The notes under the pieces are model-generated. The model had not been told where the DNA came from and made no database searches. It worked only from the letters and a program-made list of their open reading frames with translations. A DNA stretch of 40,568 nt from a virus. The stretch is from IMG/VR virus record IMGVR_UViG_3300045141_000106, positions 1 through 40,568 of that record; one strand, 5' to 3'. Shown piece after piece: positions 36,255-40,568 of the stretch. The translations under genes were made by a program, and so were the position numbers. Within the stretch, counting starts at the first letter, position 1, and each line of letters opens with the position of its first letter.

Positions 36255-36761
36255 ATTGGTCCTATCATCAAACCGGGTATGTTTTCAAATCAGTCTTGTT
36301 TTCAAAGCGGTACGATCCCGAAACGGCCCTATCTGGCCTATGGTATCAAAACACCAAAAGCCTGAGTTCCATACACATCTTACATATCATGGAACTTTTA
36401 AACAGGCCCTAGGATGCGATGAGAGCGCCGCTGATGGGCCATCCATCAGGGAGTTGCTTATGTGCTCCCTCTCCAAAATAACGCATGGGTGGCGTTTTCG
36501 CCTTTTGTTCTTTTGGCCCGGTTTTAGGACGTCAATCCTAGGTTCCCGCAAATAATCCTCTCTCAAAACGGCCCTGTTTTATGCCCGATATCGTGCATTG
36601 GAACCCGGAAATCTGCCGGGCCCTTGCGAGCGTATATAGAGGCTTGGGGTTTGAGGCCCGGCCCCAAATAGGGAGTTGACGTTAAGCCCCGGATATGAAA
36701 CAAGACATATGAGGCCCGCAAAGGGCCCGCAAATCCGTTAACCCAAAAAGGTAAAATCACC
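36255..36761. other. 507-bp non-coding divergent region, GGCCC-rich
   Basis: No credible gene is seen. The region separates the leftward late operon from the rightward ATPase/vWA module and should carry both promoters, but no clear consensus promoter was found. It holds two copies of TGTTTTCAAA 17 bp apart (36280-36289, 36297-36306), which read TTTGAAAACA toward the terminase. It also holds a short inverted repeat TGATGG/CCATCA near 36433-36449, CCCGG/CCGGG at 36604-36620, and GGCCC roughly every 50 bp. The last 40 bp (GTTAACCCAAA, AAAGG) form the leader of the next gene. Confidence 0.6.
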
Positions 36762-38234
36762 ATGTTGACCATCAACACCCAAATACCCACCGCATCGCGC
36801 GGCATGGTTCGCTCTCTTGTCAAGGCTCACAAAGATTGGCCCGCGTTTCTCACTGAAAAGGGCCTGATTTCAGCCTCTGCACGCAATGCGGATTTAATCG
36901 AGTTCGCACTTCGATACCCGGGCCTGACCCATGACATTGAAATGATTTTAGGCCAAAGCCCGCAAGGCGCGCAAACCGATGGACCCGAAACCATGATGGA
37001 CGATGGCGACATGATGCAAGACGCATTGGACACCGTTCCGGCCGATAGCGGTTTCGCGCTGGATAGCGTTCTGGCTGGCGTCGATCAGTTTCTTTCGCCA
37101 TTGGTCCGCAATGAACTCGCCAAGACCTTAGGCCCGGTTATCACGGCGGCGAACAAGCCTGCCGTCGAAGTCGAACGCATCGTTGAGGTTGAACGCATTG
37201 TTGAGGTTGCGCCCGGGGAAGGCCCGCGCGTCGTATCCTTGCCCAAGTCACGCCGCGACAAGCGGACAACATTCCGCACGCTGTACCCGTCGCGGGCCAA
37301 AGACCTATGGCGCGATGCGCCGTTGACATTATGGACCGGCGCGCCCGCACCCGCCGTTGATCCCTTTTACGTCACCAACCATGAGCAGATGGCGCTGCTC
37401 ATGACGGCAATCGAACGCGGTACAAACTCGTGGCTCACGGGCCCGCCCGCCACCGGCAAATCGACCATGCCGGAACAAGCAGCGGCGAATTTGGGCCGCG
37501 AATTTGTCAAGATCGGCATGACGCGACAAACAGAAGTTGAAAGCCTCGTTGGCGGCATGGGGCTGCGCAATGGCAACACCGTTTGGGAAGATGGCTCTTT
37601 GGTCAAGGCGATGCGCCGTCCCGGAACCATTATCCTGATCGACGAACTCACCATCGCACCCGCTGGCGTACAGGCGATCATTCAGCTTGTGGCCGATGAC
37701 CACAGAAGCCTCACGCTACCTACAGGTGAAGTTGTGAAGGCCGCCGATGGCGTTGTCTTTATCGTGGCCGACAATACCGCTGGTAGCGGCGATGAGGGCG
37801 GCTTGTATGCTGGCACCAATATCAGCAATGCCGCCCTTGTGACGCGCTTCAAGCGGATGCTCGTGATCGACTATTTGAGCGCCCAAAAAGAGGCGGAAGC
37901 CCTTGCCAACCATACCGCATGCCCCTTGCCTGCGGCCAAGCATCTGGCGGATTTCGTCGCGCAAGCAAGGCGCTTGCCTGCGCTGCAAGGCGTCGTCGTT
38001 TCGCTGCGGCAAATGGTCGGTTTCGTGCAATGCGTGCAGGACGGCTTTGCCGCAAAAGACGCTTTTGTCACCACCATTTCGTCACGCATGCCGTCGACCG
38101 AAAAGGCCGCGATTGAAGCCTTGGCCGATCTGGCTTGGAACCAAAATTTTGAAGCCTTGATCCATGGCACACCCGTGCCCGCGACACCGTCCAGCAGTGC
38201 CGCGTCCAAGGCGTTTTCGGACGAACAATATTAG
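36762..38234 (+). CDS. CobS/MoxR-like AAA+ ATPase
   Basis: 490 aa. The N-terminal 160 residues are unusual and helical, with a VEVERIVEVERIVEV repeat at about 136-149. The AAA+ core resembles CobS/MoxR: Walker A GPPATGKST at 227-235, Walker B IILIDEL ending at E295, sensor-1-like FIVADNTAGSGDEGG at about 333-347, and TRFKRMLVIDY. CobS forms the AAA+ chaperone of aerobic cobaltochelatase together with CobT, and MoxR ATPases generally pair with vWA proteins. Here the partner is the next gene. No CobN-like gene is present, so a role in B12 synthesis would need host subunits. The leader differs from those of the late and early operons. Confidence 0.85.
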   Translation: MLTINTQIPTASRGMVRSLVKAHKDWPAFLTEKGLISASARNADLIEFALRYPGLTHDIEMILGQSPQGAQTDGPETMMDDGDMMQDALDTVPADSGFALDSVLAGVDQFLSPLVRNELAKTLGPVITAANKPAVEVERIVEVERIVEVAPGEGPRVVSLPKSRRDKRTTFRTLYPSRAKDLWRDAPLTLWTGAPAPAVDPFYVTNHEQMALLMTAIERGTNSWLTGPPATGKSTMPEQAAANLGREFVKIGMTRQTEVESLVGGMGLRNGNTVWEDGSLVKAMRRPGTIILIDELTIAPAGVQAIIQLVADDHRSLTLPTGEVVKAADGVVFIVADNTAGSGDEGGLYAGTNISNAALVTRFKRMLVIDYLSAQKEAEALANHTACPLPAAKHLADFVAQARRLPALQGVVVSLRQMVGFVQCVQDGFAAKDAFVTTISSRMPSTEKAAIEALADLAWNQNFEALIHGTPVPATPSSSAASKAFSDEQY

Positions 38235-38253
38235 GGTTTGACGTTCAAACCCT
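38233..38253. other. 9-bp inverted repeat at the ATPase stop codon
   Basis: AGGGTTTGA and TCAAACCCT are separated by CGT, beginning within the TAG stop. No T-run follows. It could stabilise the mRNA 3' end or slow ribosomes or polymerase before the terminator 15 bp further on. Confidence 0.6.
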
Positions 38254-38267
38254 GACCATGCTACAAG

Positions 38268-38292
38268 AAACGGGCCCGCAAAGGGCCCGTTT
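38268..38292 (+). terminator. Intrinsic terminator or attenuator between ATPase and vWA genes
   Basis: A perfect 10-bp stem AAACGGGCCC / GGGCCCGTTT with loop GCAAA runs into TTTT. It sits between the two genes of the module, so expression of the second is probably reduced relative to the first or needs its own start. No clear promoter is seen between it and the ATG at 38321. Confidence 0.8.
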
Positions 38293-38320
38293 TCGCGTTA
38301 ACCCAAAGGAAAAACCAACA

Positions 38321-40129
38321 ATGTCATATACATATCCGGAAGCTTTAAGCGCCTTGGAAAGCATCGCCAATGACTACATCAAGTTGTTGCGGCCCAATGA
38401 TGGCGCCCGCGTCTACATGGTGTGCGACAGCCTCGCACAAACCGCATCGGTCAGTTGGAACGTTTACGAAATCCGCGTCAACATGCCGGTTCGCGCCGCG
38501 ACGTCGACCATGACGCAAGCGGAATTTGAGGATTGGACCGCCTACCTTTTGCATGAATTAGGCCATCCGACGCACACCGATAAAGCCGTATGGCAGGATG
38601 CCGTCCGCGCCGGACATGGCCGTTTGGTCAACGCGCTGGAAGACGTCCGCATGGAAAAGGCCCTGATCGCCTCCAGCATCGTGCCCAATGCCAAGGCAGT
38701 GCTTTCCCGGCTGATATCCCGCAAGGTGGTTGAAGCCCGCGCCAATGGCTGGCGGCCCAATGCCCGAAAAGAAATCGGCTGGACCATATGCGTTCTCGGT
38801 CGCGCCGCGAACGGGTACGCCTTGGACGCGGCCGACATGGCTTGGCTGGCATCGCAGATCAAAGCAGGTTCCACGGTTGAAGCCGTTCTGGCATGGGCGA
38901 TGCCGGAACTCGCGGCGTGTGCGTCGACGGCCGATTGTCTGGAACTCGCGAAGCGTATCGCGGCGGCCATTGCTGCACCACAGCAAGGCGAGCAGGGCGA
39001 GCAGGGCGAGCAGGGCGAGCAGGGCGAGCAGGGCGAGCAGGGCGAGCAGGGCGAGCAGGGCGAGCAGGGCGAGCAGGGCGAGCAGGGCGAGCAGGGCGAG
39101 CAGGGCGAGCAGGGTACAGACAGCGACGAAAAACCTACCAGCGACGCTCCCAAGGGCTCTGAAAGGCCATCCAGCGACAACGAGGGCGACAGCGACGCCG
39201 GAAAAGGCGGCAAGGGCCACGGCGACGGCACGGTTGATGCCGACGAAACGCCGGTAGCGGACGAAAGCGACTTGGTGGAACGCGATTTGGTTCCAGAAGG
39301 CGAACCCATGACCGAAGGAAGCAAGTCCACCGAAAAACTTGTTCTCGACATCTTGCGGGACCGCGCCATGCGCGAAGAGCCCCGGCATACCACTGAAAAC
39401 CGCAAATTAGGTCAGCATGGCACTCGACTGCGCGAGGCGGCCGCGAAAGCCTCACGCCAGCGCGCGTTGTTGGCCCGGGCCTTGCGCGCCAATGAGACCG
39501 AAGACCGTGAAGGCGGGCGCAAGGCCGGGCGGCTGGATCGCGGTGCCTTGTCCCGGGCGATGGCGGGCGCGCCCAACGTATTTGCCCGCCGCGAAATCAG
39601 CGAGGGTTTCGACACTGACGTTTCGGTCTTGCTGGACGCGTCCGGGTCAATGGCGGGCGCGAACATGTCGGCGGCCCTTGAAGTAGGTTTGATCGTTGCG
39701 CAAGCGGCCGGAAGTGTCGGCGCATCCTGCACCACCGAAGTTTTCAATGGGCAGGGTTATATCCGGGCCGGTGGCGTCGCCAGCAAACGCGCGCCCAATG
39801 CCGGAGACTACGGCGCGCTGATCAATTCCGCATGCAGCGGCACCCCGTTGTCGGCGCATATGGCCCGGGCCGCGTTGTCCCAAGCCAAGCGCGCGGCGCA
39901 TAAACGCCGCGTCCTGTTCATCGTCACCGATGGCGGTTGCGACTATGGCCCGCAAACCGTCAAACGCATGGCGGCCTATCTGGAACAAGCACACGGCACC
40001 GTTTTGGCCCATGTCTCGATTGGAACGCCGTTACAGGGCTCATTCCGGGCGGAAGTCATGGTCCCCTATGGCGCGCCCTTGGCGGACGTCGGCCTTGAGC
40101 ATTTCGTGAAAGTTCTACAGGCGCTCTAA
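38321..40129 (+). CDS. CobT-like protein: zincin motif, (GEQ)14 linker, vWA domain
   Basis: 602 aa from the ATG at 38321 (AAAGGA upstream); an in-frame ATG at 38258 lies before the terminator. The N-terminal domain has [10 protein letters not shown] at 78-87 and [10 protein letters not shown] at about 104-113, the HExxH-like arrangement of putative metallopeptidases that occur with vWA domains. Residues 223-264 are 14 exact Gly-Glu-Gln repeats, followed by an acidic, Gly/Asp-rich region. The C-terminal vWA domain has a complete MIDAS: DASGS (439-443), Thr in SGTPLS, and Asp in VTDGG. It probably forms a CobS-CobT/MoxR-vWA type complex with the preceding ATPase. Its target is unknown. Confidence 0.82.
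38987..39112 (+). repeat. Fourteen perfect 9-bp repeats (GGCGAGCAG)
   Basis: 126 bp of exact head-to-tail GGCGAGCAG copies without a single substitution, encoding (Gly-Glu-Gln)14 between the zincin-like and vWA domains. Perfect identity implies recent expansion and likely copy-number variation between isolates. It is also an assembly risk. Confidence 0.97.
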
Positions 40130-40155: not shown

Positions 40156-40185
40156 AACGGGCCCGTAATCACGGGCCCGTTTTTC
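40156..40185 (+). terminator. Strong intrinsic terminator after the vWA gene
   Basis: An 11-bp stem AACGGGCCCGT / ACGGGCCCGTT with loop AATC, followed by TTTTC. Both arms are themselves palindromic (ACGGGCCCGT). It closes the rightward module 26 bp after the stop. Confidence 0.9.
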
Positions 40186-40317: not shown

Positions 40318-40568
40318 CATCGCGTGACGCGCACACGCGCGTGACGCGCACACGCGCGGGCGCGCACACGCGCGGGCGCGCACACGCGCGTGACGCGCAC
40401 ACGCGCGGGCGCGCACACGCGCGGGCGCGCACACGCGCGGGCGCGCACACGCGCGGGCGCGCACACGCGCGGGCGCGCACACGCGCGTGACGCGCACACG
40501 CGCGGGCGCGCACACGCGCGGGCGCGCACACGCGCGGGCGCGCACACGCGCGGGCGCGCACACGCGCG
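40318..40568. repeat. 16/17-bp alternating purine-pyrimidine tandem repeat at right edge
   Basis: Fifteen CACACG cores spaced 16 bp apart, or 17 bp where a TGA trinucleotide is present (spacings of 17 bp after cores 1, 4 and 10), embedded in CGCGCACACGCGCG. Long stretches alternate purine and pyrimidine, the pattern that favours left-handed Z-DNA. The array runs to the last base, so it probably continues beyond the window or halted the assembly. ORFs through it (Ala-Arg-Val-Cys repeats) are not genes. Confidence 0.9.

Follow-up and report, generated by a model that had tools for sequence, protein, structure and literature searches.

Adjacent genes for a MoxR-type AAA+ ATPase and a protein with a von Willebrand factor A (vWA) domain have been described in viruses under two conflicting readings. 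Iyer et al. 2021 (PMC7824862) reported a pair of a MoxR gene and a metallopeptidase-vWA gene in jumbo phages and proposed a role in virion assembly, whereas Liu et al. 2021 (PMC8651126), who described viral cobST from tailed viruses with hosts in 8 orders, read the products as a cobaltochelatase and regarded the peptidase annotation as an error. The first reading thus takes the pair for a virion-assembly chaperone with a peptidase, the second for a cobaltochelatase with a misannotated 'peptidase'. Halovirus and Acidianus two-tailed virus (ATV) precedents are also on record (PMC7911831, PMC4124505). Here we analyze such a pair in IMG/VR virus record IMGVR_UViG_3300045141_000106, taken over its full 40,568 nucleotides (hereafter the window), in which a MoxR/CobS-like AAA+ gene is followed by a gene encoding a zincin-like N-terminal domain fused to a vWA domain. 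The architecture itself has already been described (Iyer et al. 2021; Liu et al. 2021) and is not new; in a limited literature search, we found no paper joining the phage and plasmid forms or proposing that CobT is a degenerate zincin.

The window pair resembles the jumbo-phage pair in that a MoxR AAA+ gene lies next to a vWA gene with an N-terminal metallopeptidase domain, although here it occurs in ~40-kb phages at a site between terminase and primase, and the two were likened by architecture, not residue by residue. It belongs to the same family as viral cobST, exemplified by Microcystis phage Mae-Yong1326-1 (PMC9503304), whose pair carries HETLH and LEDVRIE motifs; contrary to the viral cobST papers, the HExxH conservation reported below argues that the peptidase label is structurally right at least. 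CobS and CobT of the CobNST cobaltochelatase share the combination of an AAA+ protein with a CobT-like protein of co-linear N-terminal domain, acidic linker and vWA domain, but CobT has RQARH-type residues at the HExxH site and needs CobN, and the window protein lies outside the CobT clade. NorQ-NorD (PDB 9qhd-9qhg) also joins a MoxR ring to a vWA partner and gave the best structural match of our vWA domain; however, the match is limited to that domain, and the role of NorQ-NorD is metal insertion. The AAA-DUF3150-VWA clusters of IncC and IncHI2 plasmids likewise encode a HEAAH/HEAGH N-terminal domain, a vWA domain and a CobS-like AAA+ protein, but differ in the extra DUF3150 gene and in a ssb-bet-exo or toprim neighbor. 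SPRTN/Wss1 with Cdc48/p97 offers a further parallel, a zincin cooperating with an AAA+ unfoldase, although these zincins have no vWA domain and the likeness is one of analogy, not sequence homology.

We consider that the window pair probably constitutes an ATP-driven MoxR-vWA protein-remodeling machine whose zincin domain processes or clips the delivered protein. The preliminary description of this locus, made from the sequence alone, had recognized an AAA+ ATPase with intact Walker motifs and a second protein combining HELGH, a flexible linker and a vWA domain with an intact metal ion-dependent adhesion site (MIDAS), and both assignments were borne out (Table 1). The AAA+ protein matched Pfam AAA_5 (2.4e-18) and phrog_249 (1.4e-47), and its sequence matches among structures were Midasin, CbbQ, NorQ and CobS (1e-10 for CobS), with a weak CbbQ_C match (0.093). 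Besides both Walker motifs, it has sensor-1 (VADN at residue 335) and an Arg-finger region (LVTRF at residue 359), as expected of a MoxR-type AAA+ protein. The neighboring gene supplies the vWA partner, with an intact MIDAS (D439-S441-S443, T508 and D537) of which D439, S441 and S443 are invariant in a 22-row alignment; the best solved matches of the vWA model, the NorD vWA domain of NorQ-NorD complexes and the MIDAS domain of Midasin, are each partners of MoxR-type AAA+ rings. Residues 224-305 are predicted to form a disordered linker, with a predicted local distance difference test (pLDDT) score <50 in the full-length model.

Structure prediction also supported the proposed zincin-like N-terminus. 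AlphaFold2 modeled residues 1-222 from a 32-row alignment with a pLDDT of 92.9 and a predicted template modeling score (pTM) of 0.89, placing in order a helix, three strands, the HExxH helix (66-85), another helix and a glutamate helix (100-118). HExxH thus sits in a helix after a beta sheet, with a helix carrying a candidate acidic ligand downstream, the arrangement typical of zincins. In Foldseek searches of PDB, 10 of the first 12 matches of this domain were zincin-fold proteins (M61, ZMPSTE24, selecase, a putative Zn-dependent peptidase, SPRTN and an M34 protein), SPRTN (6mdw) being among the nearest folds with a probability of 0.75; none reached E<0.001, so the assignment stands on the motif, the order of elements and the rank of the matches. 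A viral structure library gave 16 matches at E<0.001, of which 8 go under the names of CobT, cobalamin-biosynthesis or vWA proteins from phages and haloviruses, and the rest comprise one uncharacterized HHTV-2 protein and 7 nameless ones. HELGH, the putative zinc motif of the domain, is intact.

Scans of viral sequences yielded 33 IMG/VR loci besides the close relative L006 (numbers with the prefix L are our locus handles), and annotated phages were added separately. The L006 homolog of the AAA+ protein stands at 82%, and the AAA+ protein matched 617 phage records, chiefly of cyanophages. Its gene is adjacent to, or a few genes from, the zincin-vWA gene in every sufficiently flanked phage locus; Listeria (L010) and Mycobacterium (L011) phages gave an AAA+ match only, with no zincin-vWA partner recognized in the neighboring open reading frames (ORFs) read. 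Escherichia phage PhiR41_1, whose host is E. coli K-12 MG1655, has the pair with HEVAH, and the IncC (L175) and IncHI2 (L176) conjugative plasmids of E. coli encode an AAA+ protein, DUF3150 and a HEAAH/HEAGH vWA protein, lying beside ssb-bet-exo in IncC and a toprim gene in IncHI2. Relatives of the L165 protein occur in 2,329 plasmid records, weak partial matches included. On chromosomes, a first scan of genome contigs found no relatives and a class-level genome search only three weak matches. The family to which the pair belongs is on record in other phages and is common to conjugative plasmids. Across 43 aligned N-terminal domains, conservation extends beyond HExxH to N104, E107 and D108 (42/43 each) and E112 (43/43). 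The scan yielding the distant relatives selected on the second motif, that of the glutamate helix, only, so their HExxH conservation is not a selection bias.

In the proposed mechanism, the AAA+ protein, presumably a hexamer, would unfold or pull on a substrate that the vWA protein would recruit through its MIDAS metal site. The ring would bind the MIDAS by analogy with NorQ-NorD, ATP hydrolysis would strain the recruited protein, the flexible linker would let the zincin domain reach it, and the zinc site would cut or process it as it is delivered. Hexamer formation, the MIDAS-AAA+ contact, zinc binding, proteolysis and the substrate steps are what we infer, and this standing of pulling, cleavage and substrate handling is itself a point against the proposal. 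So are the lack of a PDB match below the threshold given above and the loss of HExxH in Pseudomonas phage nickie (DSEIS) and Stenotrophomonas phage BUCTxx99 (DREVS), which implies that some lineages can do without catalysis. Moreover, where the function of a MoxR-vWA pair is known, as for NorQD, CbbQO and RavA-ViaA, the pair remodels its target without proteolysis. In nickie and BUCTxx99 (L003, L007), the aligned N-terminal and vWA domains are retained while HExxH is gone, in parallel to CobT.

These points bear on an alternative in which the pair is a non-proteolytic chaperone for metal insertion or activation, as NorQ-NorD is, and its HExxH domain keeps a metal, zinc or another, in a structural or donor role. 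That the nearest vWA structures are those of NorD, from a metal-insertion MoxR system, that the CobT branch serves metal insertion and that HExxH can be lost all fit this view; however, the loci read share no recognizable metalloenzyme partner, and the near-invariant catalytic Glu of HExxH fits catalysis better than metal holding, leaving us to regard it as unlikely.

Far less plausible is the auxiliary metabolic reading of Liu et al. 2021 (PMC8651126), by which phage CobST would use host CobN to increase cobalamin output. It draws on the profile homology to CobT (E 6e-42) and the sequence match to CobS (1e-10), but the equivalog cut-offs for CobT (TIGR01651) and CobS (TIGR01650) were missed by far, at 23.1 of 759 and 45.2 of 559 bits, and the window lies outside the CobT clade, which has a support of 100. 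As the preliminary description had noted, no CobN stands beside the pair: CobN (PF02514) was not found in the window or in 28 related viral records (20 IMG/VR relatives and 8 annotated phages), some of them fragments, while an Ochrobactrum genome carrying CobT tested positive. The window phage also has no large ribonucleotide reductase (RNR) subunit that we could find. The E. coli control genome, whose presence among the controls was shown by its RNR match, gave no CobN match, although the module is present in a phage of E. coli K-12 and on plasmids of E. coli. Because relatives thus occur in a phage of a host without CobN and on IncC/IncHI2 plasmids, cobalt chelation is unlikely as a general function of the pair, in agreement with the earlier doubt that it is a cobaltochelatase. 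Separately, in a survey covering 299 Pseudomonadota genomes, canonical CobT occurred with no gene of the CobN/ChlH family in 20 of 84 genomes sampled, although these genomes may be incomplete, and the Caulobacter vibrioides control, too, had CobT without a CobN/ChlH-family protein. Cellular CobST may therefore have a CobN-independent role.

The relationship to CobT was nevertheless evident at the profile level. The zincin-vWA protein alone gave only weak CobT matches, but a profile of 22 relatives matched the solved CobT chain 9uka_G at E 6e-42 over profile positions 96-609, with NALEDVRiE opposite DAVEQARVE. The alignment is co-linear, placing CobT LRQARH opposite LHELGH and AVEQARVE opposite ALEDVRME, the ungapped register at HExxH being our own reading. 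L174 bridges the two groups, matching the phage profile at 1e-7 and the CobT profile at 1e-39, with NALEDARIE present and HExxH absent, and four members matched PF06213. Direct hhalign comparison of the phage N-terminal domain with those of rhizobial CobT was weak (E 0.003-0.014, probability 3-4%), so the homology of this domain rests on the full-length profile match, the PF06213 members and L174-type bridges. In unrooted trees of both N-terminal domain plus vWA and vWA alone, proteins lacking HExxH fell in three separate places, at two of which their sisters have HExxH (support 95-99). CobT formed a single clade. Since the motif stands where the zincin fold requires it, we read this pattern as loss rather than repeated gain; the trees suggest three or more losses of HExxH, one of them on the line to CobT. 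We think it quite likely, from these sequence comparisons, that the CobT N-terminal domain is a degenerate zincin and that CobT derives from a zinc-protease-like protein. The preliminary description had set a match to ordinary CobT against its zincin proposal; the two domains are indeed homologous by alignment, but it is CobT that seems to be degenerate.

Within the ~40-kb phage clade, the pair occupies one fixed site between TerS and primase, and relatives with sufficient flank have the order portal-TerL-TerS (-), AAA+-zincin-vWA (+), primase-PolA (-). It was correctly placed outside the core operons, being antiparallel to those for packaging and replication. For L017-L023, a comparison at unsaturated distance (synonymous sites are saturated in many of the comparisons that involve the window), dN/dS was 0.116 for AAA+, 0.095 for zincin and 0.125 for vWA, against 0.081 for TerL. 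The pair is under strong purifying selection and is core rather than cargo in this clade. Its fixed site and strong conservation argue against a patchy superinfection-exclusion gene, and the earlier suggestion of a role in host takeover or superinfection defense found no backing here: PADLOC gave no convincing match, only a weak one for the AAA+ protein (mad8, E 0.0067). Nor does the locus look like a vWA-MoxR ternary conflict system, as the bpMoxR match of the AAA+ protein fell below cut-off and no third component (VMAP, beta-propeller or FtsH) lies beside the pair, which terminase and primase flank. The nearest terminases, 33-45% identical, come from uncultured phages, Pseudanabaena phage Pam5 and alphaproteobacterial phages, among others.

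The position beside terminase and portal, together with the same-strand placement upstream of TerL and portal in the more distant L028 and L029, accords with a virion-assembly chaperone that processes structural proteins, as Iyer et al. proposed for jumbo phages (PMC7824862) and for which ATV p618/p892 (PMC4124505) is a precedent. Against this, replication or recombination genes neighbor the pair in most other phages and in plasmids (cyanophages, nickie, BUCTxx99, PhiR41_1, a Klebsiella phage, JSF23 and the plasmids), and plasmids lack virions; we hold a virion-assembly role to be rather improbable. For the remodeling machine that we favor, either kind of target is possible, because neighbors differ between groups, with terminase on one side and primase on the other in the window clade; protein complexes on DNA are slightly favored over virion or packaging proteins.

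Table 1. Features of the AAA+/zincin-vWA locus in window coordinates.
Feature	Position	Strand	Remarks
Promoter-like TTGACG dyad (GTTGACGTTAAGCCCC...AACAAG)	36675..36704	+	upstream of AAA+ gene
35-nt leader repeat, copy 1	36713..36747	+	upstream of AAA+ gene; 83% identical to copy 2
MoxR/CobS-like AAA+ ATPase	36762..38234	+	490 aa; ORF check and family matches
Walker A GPPATGKST	37440..37466	+	aa 227-235 of AAA+ protein
Walker B ILIDEL	37632..37649	+	aa 291-296 of AAA+ protein
Promoter-like TTGACG dyad	38235..38267	+	upstream of zincin-vWA gene
Intergenic GC-rich hairpin then U4, terminator/attenuator-like	38267..38293	+	-21.1 kcal/mol, z -4.1
35-nt leader repeat, copy 2	38273..38307	+	before zincin-vWA gene
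Zincin-vWA protein, CobT-like superfamily	38321..40129	+	602 aa; start corrected
Predicted zincin-type N-terminal domain	38321..38986	+	aa 1-222; AlphaFold2 and Foldseek
HELGH motif	38552..38566	+	aa 78-82, in helix 66-85; HExxH in 41/43 aligned N-terminal domains
Glutamate helix motif NALEDVRME	38630..38656	+	aa 104-112; E107 candidate third zinc ligand
9-bp tandem repeat AGCAGGGCG x14.8	38982..39114	+	encodes GEQ linker (GEQ x ~15)
vWA domain	39614..40123	+	aa 432-601; best Foldseek match NorD VWA in NorQD, E 7e-8
MIDAS DASGS	39635..39649	+	aa 439-443
Terminator hairpin and T-run	40156..40181	+	downstream of pair; -24.2 kcal/mol, z -5.7

The second ORF exists as first described, but its start had been placed at 38258, an ATG that falls within the leader. 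Homologs open with M-(S/P)-YTYPEAL, and because their N-termini align at 38321 and a hairpin lies between the two positions, we take 38321 as the start. Both genes appear to have their own leader and terminator, as had been proposed, with two 35-nt repeats, two hairpins and, ~85 nt ahead of either start, a TTGAC(N) dyad in a form found nowhere else in the window. A generic sigma-70 promoter scan gave 0 matches (1.9 in shuffles) and a generic terminator scan 5 against 6.1 in shuffles; since these consensus scans gave none, the support lies in conserved positions across 8 relatives. There, TTGAC(N) lies 64-90 nt before the AAA+ start in 7/8, TTGACN (TTTACA in L006) lies 80-101 nt before the zincin-vWA start in 8/8, a GC-rich hairpin of differing sequence separates the genes in 8/8, and another GC-rich hairpin lies 3' of the zincin-vWA gene. 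Dyad and sequence-changing hairpin are thus kept in place intergenically in the window (38235-38293) and in L006, L014, L015, L017, L018, L019, L021 and L023. This arrangement suggests an attenuator, or a terminator overlapping a leader, and hence separate expression or attenuation rather than a plain two-gene operon.

The linker is encoded by a microsatellite that evolves fast in length and sequence, the repeats of relatives being GE, GEA or GSSQ. Collagen-like matches (Pfam 3.9e-9 and many PDB collagens) were rejected as an artifact of the GEQ repeat, because relatives use these other repeats. Elsewhere in the window, a tandem array of the 16-bp CGCGCACACGCGCGGG (40321-40568) runs off the contig end. 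The gene order of L006, in which primase follows the junction matching this array, suggests that the two ends of the window adjoin, so the record is read as a permuted or cut genome. GGGCCCG occurs 60 times in the whole window against 24 expected, a count reached in 0/100 shuffles, with some copies in terminator stems.

A broader, doubtful proposal is that a compact zinc protease driven by ATP, a prokaryotic counterpart of Cdc48-Wss1 and p97-SPRTN, is common to phages and conjugative plasmids; it would strip or clip proteins on replicating or recombining DNA, and CobT would have arisen from this module by loss of the zinc site. For annotation, the labels 'cobS', 'cobT' and 'porphyrin biosynthesis' borne by many of the 617 records need further proof before they are taken as auxiliary metabolism. 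The conserved zinc motif, the absence of CobN, occurrence in a phage and on plasmids of E. coli, and the nesting of degenerate CobT among HExxH proteins speak against a general cobaltochelatase role, and the same evidence renders the peptidase question directly testable.

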